This document shows, piece after piece, positions 5,020 through 12,636 of a stretch of DNA of 29,320 nucleotides. This DNA is from a virus: positions 1 to 29,320 of IMG/VR virus record IMGVR_UViG_3300030450_000353; one strand, given 5' to 3'. The position numbers were made by a program, and so were the translations under genes. The notes under the pieces were generated by a model, which was not told where the DNA came from, ran no database searches, and saw only the letters and a program-made list of their open reading frames with translations. Position 1 is the first letter of the stretch. Each line of letters opens with the position of its first letter.

Positions 5020-5099
5020 TAATTGAAACATTTTTGATGTTAATTTGTGCTACTTTAATTTTAGTTGCGTTACATCATTATATGAGAGACGATATATGA
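5016..5099 (+). CDS. 27-aa single-span membrane microprotein
   Basis: The peptide is almost one hydrophobic helix (FLMLICATLILVALHH) followed by YMRDDI. The ATG overlaps the previous stop (ATGA) and its TGA overlaps the ATG of the holin-like gene. That double coupling is the main reason to believe it. It could modulate holin timing, but this is inference. Confidence 0.45.
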   Translation: MIIETFLMLICATLILVALHHYMRDDI

Positions 5100-5497
5100 A
5101 TATATTAGCAAAAATATTTGGAAATACTGGAGTTGGAATAGCTGAAAAAATATCAGGTATTGTAGATAAATTCGTACATACAAAACAGGAGAAAGCAGAG
5201 TTTCAAAAAGAAATGGATCAAATTTGGATTGAAGCTGAAGCTGATATGCAGAAGAATGTTACTGAAAGGTGGGGTATGGATTCACAGGTTCATTCTAGTT
5301 GGTTAGCTAAAAACGTAAGACCTATGGTTTTATTAATTTTAGTTATTTCTACAATATTAATGGTATTTATAGATGCAGGATGGATAAGTTTTGATTTAAA
5401 AGATTCGCATACGGATTTACTTCAGATAGTTTTATTAACTTGTATTGGAGCTTATTTTGGCGGAAGATCATTTGAGAAGGTAAAAAAGAATGGCTAG
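5096..5497 (+). CDS. Holin (phage holin with C-terminal YFGGRS(F)EK motif)
   Basis: I chose ATG 5096 over the in-frame ATG 5045 because it overlaps the preceding stop and begins MNILAKIFG. That gives 133 residues. An N-terminal amphipathic part with charged helix (residues about 20-60) is followed by SWLAKNVRPMVLLILVISTI and a second hydrophobic segment (DLLQIVLLTCIGAYFGGRS), then EKVKKNG. The NVRPMV...YFGGRSFEK arrangement is that of a common class of phage holins with two to three membrane segments. Expected role: inner-membrane permeabilisation that lets the M15 endolysin reach the wall. It is the best holin candidate in the window. Confidence 0.7.
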   Translation: MNILAKIFGNTGVGIAEKISGIVDKFVHTKQEKAEFQKEMDQIWIEAEADMQKNVTERWGMDSQVHSSWLAKNVRPMVLLILVISTILMVFIDAGWISFDLKDSHTDLLQIVLLTCIGAYFGGRSFEKVKKNG

Positions 5498-5630
5498 AAG
5501 ATATATAACTCCAGCTTACATACATAAACCGAAAAAAAAACGACCTAATATACATAGCAAAAATAGAAACACAAATCAAAAAAATGGAAAATACTACACA
5601 GGAACAAAATACAAAGGACAAGGCAGATGA
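5490..5630 (+). CDS. Small basic protein (46 aa)
   Basis: 46 residues with a strong positive charge: MARRYITPAYIHKPKKK, then RPNIHSKNRN, ending TKYKGQGR. It overlaps the holin gene by 8 nt. Very similar basic microproteins with the layout PAYIHKPKKKR...YKGQGR are common in marine phages. Charge suggests nucleic acid or membrane-surface binding, but no function is established to my knowledge. Confidence 0.6.
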   Translation: MARRYITPAYIHKPKKKRPNIHSKNRNTNQKNGKYYTGTKYKGQGR

Positions 5631-5721
5631 AATATTCTTAGATATTAAGAATCGTCAGAAGTATGAAGAAAAAACAATTTGTAAAATAGACGATGAAGAT
5701 TGTCTTTGCTGTGGTAGTTAA
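5584..5721 (+). CDS. Cys-rich acidic microprotein (45 aa)
   Basis: 45 residues starting inside the preceding gene in another frame (47-nt overlap). The N-terminal two thirds are charged; the C-terminus is CKIDDEDCLCCGS, with four Cys in 13 residues, enough for one metal or redox site. It is the last gene before the non-coding gap at 5722-5914. The long out-of-frame overlap lowers confidence, but the Cys cluster and its place at the end of the operon support it. Confidence 0.45.
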   Translation: MENTTQEQNTKDKADEIFLDIKNRQKYEEKTICKIDDEDCLCCGS

Positions 5722-5740
5722 AAAAAAATTTATATATTTG
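5706..5740 (+). promoter_or_regulatory. Candidate promoter with TATATTTG -7 box
   Basis: TATATTTG at 5733-5740 is a perfect Bacteroidetes -7 element. The nearest upstream TTG (5706-5708) is 24 nt away, slightly long. It overlaps the end of the upstream gene and would start RNA at about 5747, giving a leader of roughly 170 nt before the ATG at 5915. Confidence 0.4.
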
Positions 5741-5831
5741 CTAAATAGTTGAACATCTATACAAGGTTCTAAACTTCAGTAACTACGACTGTTGGATCAG
5801 GTAAATTAAATAGTTTCTTTTTATGGGGGGG
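5741..5831 (+). other. Non-coding leader with direct repeat and G7 run
   Basis: This stretch has no usable reading frame. TAAATAGTT occurs twice (5742-5750 and 5807-5815), flanking a more GC-containing 55-nt core in which short stems are possible (GAAC with GTTC, CAGT with ACTG). It ends in seven consecutive G at 5825-5831, directly before the pyrimidine mirror repeat. It could be a small RNA, a leader, or part of a replication site. No known RNA family recognised. Confidence 0.3.
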
Positions 5832-5833
5832 TT

Positions 5834-5879
5834 TTTCTTTTCTTTTTCTTTTTTGTCCTTTTTTCTTTTTCTTTTCTTT
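5834..5879 (+). repeat. Perfect pyrimidine mirror repeat (H-DNA-forming)
   Basis: Two 21-nt all-pyrimidine arms (5834-5854 and 5859-5879) are exact mirror images about the centre GTCC (5855-5858). From the centre outward, each arm reads six T, C, five T, C, four T, C, three T. The complementary strand is all purine in the arms. A homopurine-homopyrimidine mirror repeat of this length is the classical requirement for an intramolecular triplex. It lies in a 193-nt intergenic gap between lysis and replication genes, next to G7. The symmetry is seen directly; the structure and any role in replication or transcription are inference. Confidence 0.85.
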
Positions 5880-5887
5880 ATATATTA

Positions 5888-5903
5888 AAATATTTGTTAA
5901 TAA
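5888..5903 (+). repeat. 16-nt repeat, copy 1 (upstream of 5915 gene)
   Basis: The 16 bases AAATATTTGTTAATAA at 5888-5903 recur exactly at 10014-10029. In both places a TATATTT element follows after 4 to 5 nt and a start codon lies close downstream (ATG 5915 here). A shared promoter or operator element is the simplest reading. Confidence 0.5.
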
Positions 5904-5914
5904 TCGTTATATTT

Positions 5915-6169
5915 ATGAAACAATTTATATTGTATATGGATTTTAAGACAGAAACAATAGACAAAATATTAAACTATAAGTCTGTATCTAAAAAAGACAA
6001 AATATCTAGAATGTTAGAAATAGATGCTATTATGTATTGTAATTTAGGAATAGATAGTTCCTTAAATGCTAAACGTAGAGTTAAAAAAAATAGCAGATAT
6101 ATTTATAAAGCTATCTCTAAATTAAATAAAGAGTTAGGTACTAAATTTCTAATATATCAAGATAAATAA
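5915..6169 (+). CDS. Hypothetical protein (84 aa), first gene of the replication region
   Basis: I chose ATG 5915 (MKQFILYMDFKTETI) over the in-frame ATG 5894, because the latter overlaps the repeat and the TATATTT element. The protein is basic and helical, with pattern DKILNYKSVSKKDKISRMLE and a Lys/Arg-rich middle (NAKRRVKKNSRYIYKAISKL). It could bind nucleic acid, but no motif decides this. The stop codon is immediately followed by the ATG of the NinG-like gene, so the two are likely translated together. Confidence 0.55.
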   Translation: MKQFILYMDFKTETIDKILNYKSVSKKDKISRMLEIDAIMYCNLGIDSSLNAKRRVKKNSRYIYKAISKLNKELGTKFLIYQDK

Positions 6170-6574
6170 ATGGCTAGAAAAATAACTAGAAGAAACCTAG
6201 TAAAAAAGTTAGATACAATATTTAGTGAATATATCAGACGTAAACATTCCGATAAAAACGGAATAGTTAAATGTTACACTTGTAACAAAAAAGCATACTG
6301 GAAAGGAGAAGGTATGCAGAATGGACATTTTATTTCCAGATATTCTAGAATACTTCGTTGGGATGAAAATAATTGCAGACCTCAATGTTATGCTTGTAAC
6401 TGTATGAGGTATGGTCAGAACTATATATTTGCGATGAATCTTAATAAAGAATTTGGGTACGACATAGCTTCAGAACTTTTAATTAAATCAAAACAAATTT
6501 CTAAGTTATCAAACGATGAGATGATTTCGTTAATAAATAAATATAAAAATTTAGTAGAAGAATTAAATAAATAA
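6170..6574 (+). CDS. ninG: NinG-like recombination nuclease (HNH-type zinc protein)
   Basis: 134 residues. The NinG (lambda Rap) signature is clear: an N-terminal basic region (MARKITRRNLVKKLDTIFSEYIR), a first Cys pair in KCYTCNKK, then MQNGHFISR, LRWDENNCRPQCYACN and MRYGQNY. NinG proteins are HNH-fold nucleases or branched-DNA binding proteins that help phage recombination and junction processing; the Cys residues hold zinc. It lies upstream of the ERF annealing protein, which fits a phage recombination module. A terminator follows at 6611-6644. Confidence in the family is high; exact substrate is not known from sequence. Confidence 0.88.
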   Translation: MARKITRRNLVKKLDTIFSEYIRRKHSDKNGIVKCYTCNKKAYWKGEGMQNGHFISRYSRILRWDENNCRPQCYACNCMRYGQNYIFAMNLNKEFGYDIASELLIKSKQISKLSNDEMISLINKYKNLVEELNK

Positions 6575-10046: not shown

Positions 10047-10766
10047 ATGATATTATTAATTGATGCAGACAGTTTAGTCTTTGCAAGTTGCTATAAGACT
10101 AAAAAAGAAGGCGAAGTATTAGAAGATATTTACCATAGAAATATTGAAGATGCTATTGATAAATTTGATGAACAGTATATGAAAATAGTAAACGACTTAG
10201 ATGATATTTATAATGTTACTAAGGTAGTTACTTTTAATGGCAGTAAAGGAAACTTCAGAAAAAAAATAACTCCTACTTACAAAGCAAATAGAAAAGGTCA
10301 GGAATTACCACCTTTATTATTTGAAATGCACCAATACGTTAAAGATAGTTATGATAGTATTTATGGATATGGAATAGAAACAGACGATTTAGTAGCTACT
10401 TATTGGCAAGATTTAACGGATGAGAAAGGTAGAGAAAATGTAATGATTGTTAGTATTGATAAAGACTACCGACAGTTTCCAGCTTTAATTTATAACTATC
10501 ATTATAACCATAGAGAGGTATTAGATATAACTCCAGAACAATCTCTTTATAATTTCTACGAACAATGTATCACAGGAGATTCTGCTGATAATGTCAATTA
10601 CTTTAAAGGAAAAGGAAAAAAGTTTTCTGAAAAATATTTTAAAAATTGTAGAACTAAATATCAATATACAAGAAAACTATACGAATTATTTAAACAACAA
10701 TATAAAGGCAAAGCAAGACAGAAATATGTTGAATGTTATAACTTACTTAAATTAAGAACACAATGA
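10047..10766 (+). CDS. 5'-3' exonuclease (FEN / T4 RNase H-like)
   Basis: I chose ATG 10047 (MILLIDADSLVF) because the first strand with its metal-binding Asp starts there; the in-frame ATG 10020 lies in the promoter-like element. 239 residues. Motifs in order: LLIDADSLVF, TYKANRKGQELP, GYGIETDDLVATY, VMIVSIDKDYRQFP, then YEQCITGDSADNV and a following GKGKKF, as in helix-hairpin-helix 5' nucleases. The acidic cluster binds two metal ions. It would remove RNA primers or resect ends to give substrate for the ERF annealase. It overlaps the DnaA-like gene by 4 nt. Confidence 0.85.
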   Translation: MILLIDADSLVFASCYKTKKEGEVLEDIYHRNIEDAIDKFDEQYMKIVNDLDDIYNVTKVVTFNGSKGNFRKKITPTYKANRKGQELPPLLFEMHQYVKDSYDSIYGYGIETDDLVATYWQDLTDEKGRENVMIVSIDKDYRQFPALIYNYHYNHREVLDITPEQSLYNFYEQCITGDSADNVNYFKGKGKKFSEKYFKNCRTKYQYTRKLYELFKQQYKGKARQKYVECYNLLKLRTQ

Positions 10767-11290
10767 ATTTAAAGCCTATTGAAATAGCAGATAAAATTAA
10801 ACAGTTATCTGGTATAAATATATTTGAGAATACAAGAAAAAGACCAGTTGTAGAAATGAGGTCTTTACTTTGTTATTTGCTTAGAGAAAAACTAGGAATG
10901 AGATGGACTAATATAGCTTTGTTTTTTAGATCACAGGGAAAACCAATAAACCACGCTACGGTAATCCATAGTAAAAAGTTGTATAAACTTTATAAAAAAA
11001 CAAATAAAAGATTAGATGAAATTGAAAAAATATTTTCTTTTAGAAGTGATTTGTCAGTAGATGAAATAGATAGGGTTCACTATTTAGAAAACAAATGTAG
11101 AAACCTACAACAAAGACTAGAAAATCCTTTGGTTAAATTGGTTATTGATATTCCACTACAAAAACACGACAAAGCAAAACACGACATAGAAAGACTTATA
11201 AAAAGCTGGGAATGGAAAGACAAAGTATTAGTAGAGATGCCTAAAGGCAAACTAAGCACAGCAGAAAAAACCTTACTACAAGATGGATAA
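10763..11290 (+). CDS. DnaA domain IV-like DNA-binding protein
   Basis: 175 residues. Residues about 24-75 match the C-terminal DNA-binding domain of DnaA: RKRPVVEMRSLLCYLLREKLGMRWTNIALFF, then INHATVIHSKKLYKLY, where NHATVIH corresponds to the DnaA (D/N)HTTVLH signature that contacts the DnaA box. There is no AAA+ domain. The rest (80-175) is helical and charged, ending LSTAEKTLLQDG. It may mark the phage origin for the host replisome, or compete with host DnaA. It lies between the 5'-3' exonuclease and small genes, overlapping both neighbours by a few bases. Confidence 0.75.
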   Translation: MNLKPIEIADKIKQLSGINIFENTRKRPVVEMRSLLCYLLREKLGMRWTNIALFFRSQGKPINHATVIHSKKLYKLYKKTNKRLDEIEKIFSFRSDLSVDEIDRVHYLENKCRNLQQRLENPLVKLVIDIPLQKHDKAKHDIERLIKSWEWKDKVLVEMPKGKLSTAEKTLLQDG

Positions 11291-12356: not shown

Positions 12357-12517
12357 AAAGAATATTAAATAAAATAGTTAAATATATCAGGTGGTTATAT
12401 AGACCTAAATGGATTTGGTTAAAAGTTCCTATTGAATATGAATCTCAAAAAGAACGTACTGAATGTCTTAATAAGACAGAAAAACATATTTTAGATAAGA
12501 CAAAAATTATTTATTAA
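12353..12517 (+). CDS. Hypothetical basic small protein (54 aa)
   Basis: 54 residues, very basic and aromatic in the first half (MKRILNKIVKYIRWLYRPKW), then KVPIEYESQKERTECLNKTEKHIL. The ATG overlaps the methyltransferase stop (ATGA), and it is the last gene before a terminator-like hairpin. The amphipathic Arg/Trp/Lys start could bind membrane or nucleic acid. No family recognised. Confidence 0.5.
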   Translation: MKRILNKIVKYIRWLYRPKWIWLKVPIEYESQKERTECLNKTEKHILDKTKIIY

Positions 12518-12529
12518 CTTACGTTATAT

Positions 12530-12550
12530 ACTTGAATAATCAAGTTTTTT
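12530..12550 (+). terminator. Small terminator-like hairpin before terminase genes
   Basis: ACTTGA (12530-12535) pairs with TCAAGT (12540-12545) over a 4-nt loop and is followed by T to 12550. The remaining gap to 12636 is AT-rich with no gene I can support. TATACTTG at 12527-12534, close to a -7 box, overlaps the hairpin. Confidence 0.45.
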
Positions 12551-12636
12551 CAAGATATGTATATAAATAGATTATCTTCATTTAAAAAATATATTAAGAA
12601 AACGCTTAACATAAGTTTTAAAAAATTAAATAAATT

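Follow-up and report, generated by a model that had tools for sequence, protein, structure and literature searches.

The occurrence of a perfectly symmetrical pyrimidine tract in a non-coding gap of a phage genome raises the question as to whether such a tract is kept by selection and, if so, what the phage uses it for. The window analysed here is a 29,320-base IMG/VR record taken at its full length, and all positions refer to it. The tract is a perfect mirror repeat at 5834-5879 on the plus strand, made of two 21-nt pyrimidine arms with zero mismatches (left arm, 5834-5854, TTTCTTTTCTTTTTCTTTTTT; right arm, 5859-5879, TTTTTTCTTTTTCTTTTCTTT) in which T runs of 6, 5, 4 and 3 are separated by a single C, on either side of a GTCC loop (5855-5858) that is also the most frequent loop across relatives. 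Both arms are read directly from the sequence and recur in relatives. A first-pass annotation of this DNA had reported a mismatch-free 21-nt mirror around GTCC, which we confirm with the coordinates above. It had also placed seven G immediately upstream; the G7 run is present (5825-5831, plus strand) but two T intervene before the left arm, and the run is lineage-specific, most relatives having GG or TAGGG. In ten dinucleotide-preserving shuffles of the window the best mirror arm was 9-13 nt, in comparison with 21 nt in the window itself. The record contains one copy of the mirror, and within the window a purine stretch with run lengths equal to those of its arms exists only on the opposite strand at the mirror site. 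Identical 56-nt tracts were found in eight contigs with different metagenome ids and this recurrence in independent metagenomes rules out an assembly error, so that the worry raised earlier about artefactual run lengths can be set aside.

A first set of relatives was gathered through the neighbouring proteins (the NinG-like protein, the holin-like protein and the product of the small gene after the tract). The same gap in many of these relatives carries a perfect mirror with different run lengths, for example 3-6-4-3, 6-6-4-3, 5-6-3-3, 5-3-4-4 and 4-4-4-4, and alternative loops such as ACTC, GGTTAC and GTTTAC are also seen. Later relatives were anchored by pattern scans on a conserved RNA-like sequence upstream, with the tract itself left unused so that there was no selecting on symmetry. 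The anchors gave 138 distinct loci, 124 of them with a T-rich tract; L325 among these 124 proved to be an AT repeat that the filter had let through, and it is excluded from later counts. Perfect mirrors make up 102 of these tracts and the remaining 22 are imperfect, 17 of them by one mismatch. Facing bases in the anchor-locus tracts are T/T in 2154 pairs, C/C in 329, G/G in 16 and A/A in 14, with 32 unlike pairs, and the perfect arms comprise at least 42 distinct sequences.

Changes within the inner 16 nt of the arms were counted by Fitch parsimony on a tree of 122 tips, built on the adjacent upstream RNA region and not on the whole phage. This gave 55 changes for the left arm, 54 for the right arm and 58 for the pair, where about 109 pair changes would be expected if the arms were independent, and the near coincidence of the left, right and joint counts indicates that the two arms change together. 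The inner 16 nt are equal between arms in 105 of 122 loci, in comparison with a mean of 11.6 (maximum 23) when right arms are re-dealt. Recombination of the whole module may inflate the joint changes on this tree; it cannot generate 42 different symmetric arm pairs. As a control, the inner mirror CTTTCTTTTT-N4-TTTTTCTTTC (10-nt arms) was scanned for in bacterial and archaeal genomes. At the 117 cellular sites found, none of which has the conserved RNA core, symmetry ends at 10 nt in 78, at 11 in 25, at 12 in 10 and at 14 in 2, with longer symmetry at just 2 sites, one of them a simple repeat, whereas 27 of the 29 phage sites with the same inner seed keep it up to 19-20 nt.

The low complexity of the tract would be in keeping with a mirror produced by chance, slippage or an assembly artefact. 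Slippage, however, acts locally within one run and cannot hold two arms equal, in agreement with the first-pass view that drift or slippage was an improbable source; the same tracts recur in independent metagenomes, the cellular control mirrors stop short without extension and the joint arm changes on the tree already refute this explanation, to which we attach practically no weight. The proposal that the mirror would be kept in related phages when its bases change is strongly upheld by the 42 arm types and the parsimony counts, and from these sequence comparisons it appears nearly certain that mirror symmetry is under selection. Arms of 26-27 nt with A or G interruptions were seen in L060, L263, L283, L293, L138 and L141, with matched A/A interruptions in L138, L141 and L293 and A/G in L263 and L283; most of these six loci belong to a lineage in which the element is inverted. 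A coding role for the tract was considered and rejected, as no common frame is preserved when the perfect arms range from 16 to 22 nt and the loops are of either 4 or 6 nt.

Mirror identity is what a triplex demands, one strand segment being placed there on the other's duplex. The parallel covariation of the arms favours a triplex since Watson-Crick processes keep inverted or direct relations instead. Of the 102 perfect mirrors, 76 have a loop of 4 nt and 21 one of 6 nt (97 of 102 together), CC is absent from all 102 perfect arms against the 24% expected by shuffling, each C thus being isolated, and nearly all T runs are of 3-6; isolated C, T runs of this length and loops of 4 or 6 nt all fit a pyrimidine triplex. 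Some symmetric interruptions are A/A or G/G, which fall outside the canonical triads and count against such a fold. An A/G interruption could form a G.T-A triad, a hint from too few independent cases that the 3′ half is the third strand. Overall, intramolecular triplex DNA (H-DNA), for which the tract had been proposed as a substrate, would be the best account of the parallel covariation, and we consider it likely that the tract folds in this manner. The tract is also T-rich on the non-template strand and holds many TTnTTT words, as might suit a double-stranded protein site or a T-rich polymerase pause site of the NusG type at which symmetry is incidental; a mirror register would be unneeded at either, dimeric DNA-binding proteins read inverted or direct repeats, and the joint run-length changes on both sides would go unexplained, all of which makes this a poor candidate.

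Like the H-DNA mirror repeats described mostly in eukaryotic studies, the phage element has an R.Y tract, mirror arms, a short loop and the potential for T.A-T and C+.G-C triads. Unlike them it is single-copy and fixed in place, comes with a structured RNA and shows covariation of its arms over many phages. Bacteria also have ITxF intrastrand triplex motifs (PMC4666352), which form triplexes from a single strand, are present in many copies, lie in variable regions and have no phage link; they have in common with the phage mirror that they are intergenic triplex-forming repeats in prokaryotes, but the phage element is a single-copy mirror repeat. A search confined to the open literature found no published description of a comparable co-varying phage mirror element.

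The first-pass annotation was concerned with the tract alone, and while its description of the tract holds, it overlooked that the tract forms the end of a putatively transcribed module, one that has its own promoter and a conserved structured RNA. From 5′ to 3′ the module consists of the promoter, a covarying RNA stretch of about 60 nt with a pseudoknot and a hairpin, a G-rich spacer and the mirror. The promoter is a -7 box, TATATTTG (TAnnTTTG; 5733-5740, plus strand), of what we take to be the Bacteroidota type, and would start a small RNA. Of 119 distinct loci, 111 carry the motif TAnnTTT[G/A] at a distance of 60-140 nt before the tract, in comparison with 31 of 119 in a control window, and the median box-to-tract spacing, as judged by motif, is 86 nt. 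The RNA core of the window is of a class that we term type B, in which an H-type pseudoknot (5745-5769, plus strand; S1, 5745-5748 with 5757-5760; S2, 5751-5754 with 5766-5769) is followed by a hairpin element (5777-5806, plus strand) comprising S3 (CAGT, 5777-5780, with ACTG, 5788-5791) and the conserved TTGGATCAGGTAAAT (5792-5806).

A pattern scan for type B matched 22 stretches. Across 26 distinct type-B cores S1 is 100% paired (shuffle mean 73%, maximum 85%), S2 100% (shuffle mean 93%, maximum 98%) and S3 96% (72% shuffled). Type-A cores, with the pattern ACTT-N4-(A/C)CCTAATAAA...GGA.G-N4'-TTGGA(A/T)C, are 100% paired in 54 distinct cores with 19 different stem pairs, in comparison with 54% shuffled. 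The case for RNA structure is one of covariation, as energy folding of the single-strand RNA of the window is no better than that of shuffles (z +1.0). Rfam covariance models gave nothing at gathering score in the window or in 14 loci, and the RNA core was absent from the GTDB genomes when these were scanned for it. The core ACTT-stem-CCTAATAAA-GGA-stem-TTGGATC was also seen with no pyrimidine mirror at all (L232, L241, L254, L256, L257, L261, L268, L290, L298 and L333), and for this reason it looks like a wider phage RNA family outside Rfam. In L273 (762-810, plus strand) the core is followed by G6-TAA-G6 in place of the mirror, ahead of a GAACCCCCTAAAGGGGTTC hairpin, mirror-less L286 and L292 have G7-TAA-G7 before the same hairpin and L298 has G7-AGGG downstream of the core. 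It is as if, in these mirror-less cousins, interrupted G runs made another non-B element that replaces the mirror.

Between the RNA core and the mirror lies a short pyrimidine run, Y0 (5814-5822, plus strand), which tends to mirror the outer part of the left arm (Y1) across the G run. The Y0/Y1 mirror arm averages 8.9 nt, in comparison with 7.9 (maximum 8.3) when re-dealt, and reaches 14-16 nt in L239, L185 and L182. Coupling of RNA and mirror is seen from the opposite direction as well, in that all 16 loci found by the mirror pattern only have an RNA core upstream on the same strand, L127 having just a diverged core-like hairpin. Wherever core and mirror co-occur the pyrimidine strand is always the RNA-like strand.

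This constancy of strand would also be expected of a triple helix at the RNA level, in which an A-rich strand (a poly(A) tail or mRNA) is gripped between both U/C arms of the transcript in the manner of ENE/MALAT1 and the small RNA is stabilised, and such a reading gains further from the T-run register being better kept than the interrupting base, with C/G, G/C and A/G pairs occurring. However, the rest of the window has no A-rich tract whose G positions match, the 329 pairs in which C faces C are not demanded by a poly(A) partner and ENE-type flanking stems are absent, so that we regard an RNA triple helix as unlikely. If the triplex is one of DNA, the fixed strand and the link with a promoter and an RNA suggest that it folds while the tract is being transcribed, and such a coupling to transcription seems somewhat favoured.

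The module lies in a non-coding gap (about 5722-5914) between the lysis genes and NinG/ERF/SSB, the neighbour gene matches bearing out the first placement of the tract between lysis and replication genes; the window is likewise free of any ORF of 60 aa at 12357-12636. The invariant left neighbour is a holin-like gene (5096-5497, plus strand) with a weak, sub-threshold match to PF11351 (GTA_holin_3TM). To the right are a small gene (MLEIDA..., 5915-6169, plus strand), a frequent neighbour with no Pfam match, and a NinG-like endonuclease gene (6170-6574, plus strand; PF05766, 5.7e-11) that starts a recombination/replication cassette of ERF (PF04404), SSB-like and AAA genes. When loci were placed by tblastn, at least one neighbour was placeable in 118 of 122, and in nearly all placeable loci the module sits between M15/holin/spanin and NinG/ERF/SSB/AAA. 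The RNA and the pyrimidine strand are inverted together relative to the neighbours in L060, L128, L130, L135, L138, L141, L142, L263, L271 and L283, and the module is in another gene context in L129, L134 and L136. Its fixed position and joint inversion indicate that it is a unit belonging to a place and not the leader or tail of one operon.

A non-coding tract of conserved position might also serve as a packaging or ejection signal. The terminase genes are about 7 kb away, however, the tract is tied to a transcribed RNA and its orientation is reversible, and we consider this function very improbable. Among the roles suggested in the first-pass annotation, a replication origin and a transcription block stay viable and packaging or ejection is unsupported.

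Several further features of these genomes were noted. Several relatives without the module (L002, L003, L005, L019 and L022) have AT-rich palindromic repeats (TATAGTA / TAGTCTATAATAGACTA) in the corresponding gap upstream of NinG, possibly another type of origin. At 5490-5630 the window encodes a tiny basic protein (KRPNIHSKN...YKGQGR), and similar short proteins precede the module in many relatives (L088, L108). By eye, the predicted protein at 10763-11290 has a stretch, HATVIHSKKL, resembling DnaA domain IV, which makes it a possible initiator. The isolate phage tooticki has its NinG region in a different gene context. Searches of annotated phages with the gap or the RNA core by blastn gave no credible match, a hit in a Pelagibacter phage lying within coding sequence and being dismissed as due to chance. 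The terminase is best matched by Flavobacterium phages (47% identity), and these relatives together with the promoter type suggest a Bacteroidota host.

The phage probably uses the tract when starting genome copying or when stopping transcription. As the most likely reading of the module we propose a phage replication origin, with a probability of about 0.45. RNA polymerase would start at about 5741, make the pseudoknot/hairpin RNA (the whole transcript having a predicted length of about 140 nt) and then traverse the mirror with its T/C-rich strand as the non-template strand, and negative supercoiling behind the polymerase would let one pyrimidine half fold onto the duplex of the other half, the third strand forming T.A-T and C+.G-C triads with GTCC as the loop. 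The matching purine half of the template would be left free and stay paired with the nascent U/C-rich RNA. This locked RNA-DNA hybrid would halt the polymerase and leave the duplex opened, and the 3′ end of the RNA, after RNase H, would prime DNA synthesis. Counting against this reading, the hybrid that U/C-rich RNA makes with a purine template is of the weaker kind, and long G runs (at least 4) occur in only 36 of 119 loci. GC skew and fourfold-site skew have no inflection at 5.8 kb and give no origin signal, but every gene is on one strand.

The proposed origin resembles several known priming systems. Like the ColE1 RNA II pre-primer, it has a structured RNA upstream of a hybrid-forming tract, but the phage RNA is far shorter and different in sequence, and no antisense RNA I was seen. 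The T4 origin oriF combines a promoter with an AT-rich unwinding element, a priming R-loop and a primer processed by RNase H (PMC3016281). Similarities to T4 oriF/oriG are a promoter with an AT-rich element no more than about 100 bp beyond it, a site near replication functions and an RNA that would prime; in contrast, the T4 unwinding element is not sequence-specific and no mirror repeat or conserved pseudoknot RNA is described there (PMC3016281). Origin activity of the phage module is a prediction. At CSBII of human mtDNA a non-B structure stops transcription, stabilises an R-loop and is needed for priming, with its strongest effect on supercoiled DNA (PMC6317783). The LSP-CSBII arrangement of a promoter, an RNA of about 90-120 nt, a non-B element and then termination with an anchored hybrid is what we propose here. 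CSBII uses a G-quadruplex (PMC6317783) whereas the phage module has a pyrimidine mirror, although some of its RNA-core cousins carry CSBII-like G runs; in place of the several long G runs of a CSBII-type G-quadruplex the window has a single G7.

The main rival to an origin is a triplex transcription block with no role in replication, in which co-transcriptional folding of the mirror would terminate the small RNA and provide an insulator between the lysis and the replication operon, the RNA itself acting elsewhere. No GC hairpin directly before a T tract, as in an intrinsic terminator, is found within 5400-6100 and the last stem ends at 5791, more than 40 nt before the mirror, so that something else must end the small RNA. 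Among 115 loci of the usual orientation, 74 have a promoter-like box after the mirror, in comparison with 22 in the control, and where the module is inverted its RNA points towards the end of the lysis operon. A simple terminator hairpin would come at a lower cost, however, and a block does not account for the constant association with a single RNA core or for the site beside the replication genes; we consider it a less likely, though serious, alternative. More tentatively than an origin as such, the module could be a new class of phage origin, in which a pseudoknotted pre-primer RNA forms a hybrid that is locked open by a mirror triplex and the arms are kept by compensatory evolution.

Whether H-DNA serves any selected purpose in cells is a question long debated on the strength of single sequences. 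More than 100 phage loci that alter both arms jointly are for a triplex the equivalent of the compensatory changes by which RNA stems were proved, and the element is short, has about 40 natural variants and can be tested on plasmids. Should the new class of origin proposed above be real, its triplex would be the first in nature for which covariation has demonstrated selection. The only genes recognised beside the module in this large group of uncultured Bacteroidota phages are NinG, ERF, SSB-like and AAA, and if the module is an origin it would explain how replication starts in the group.
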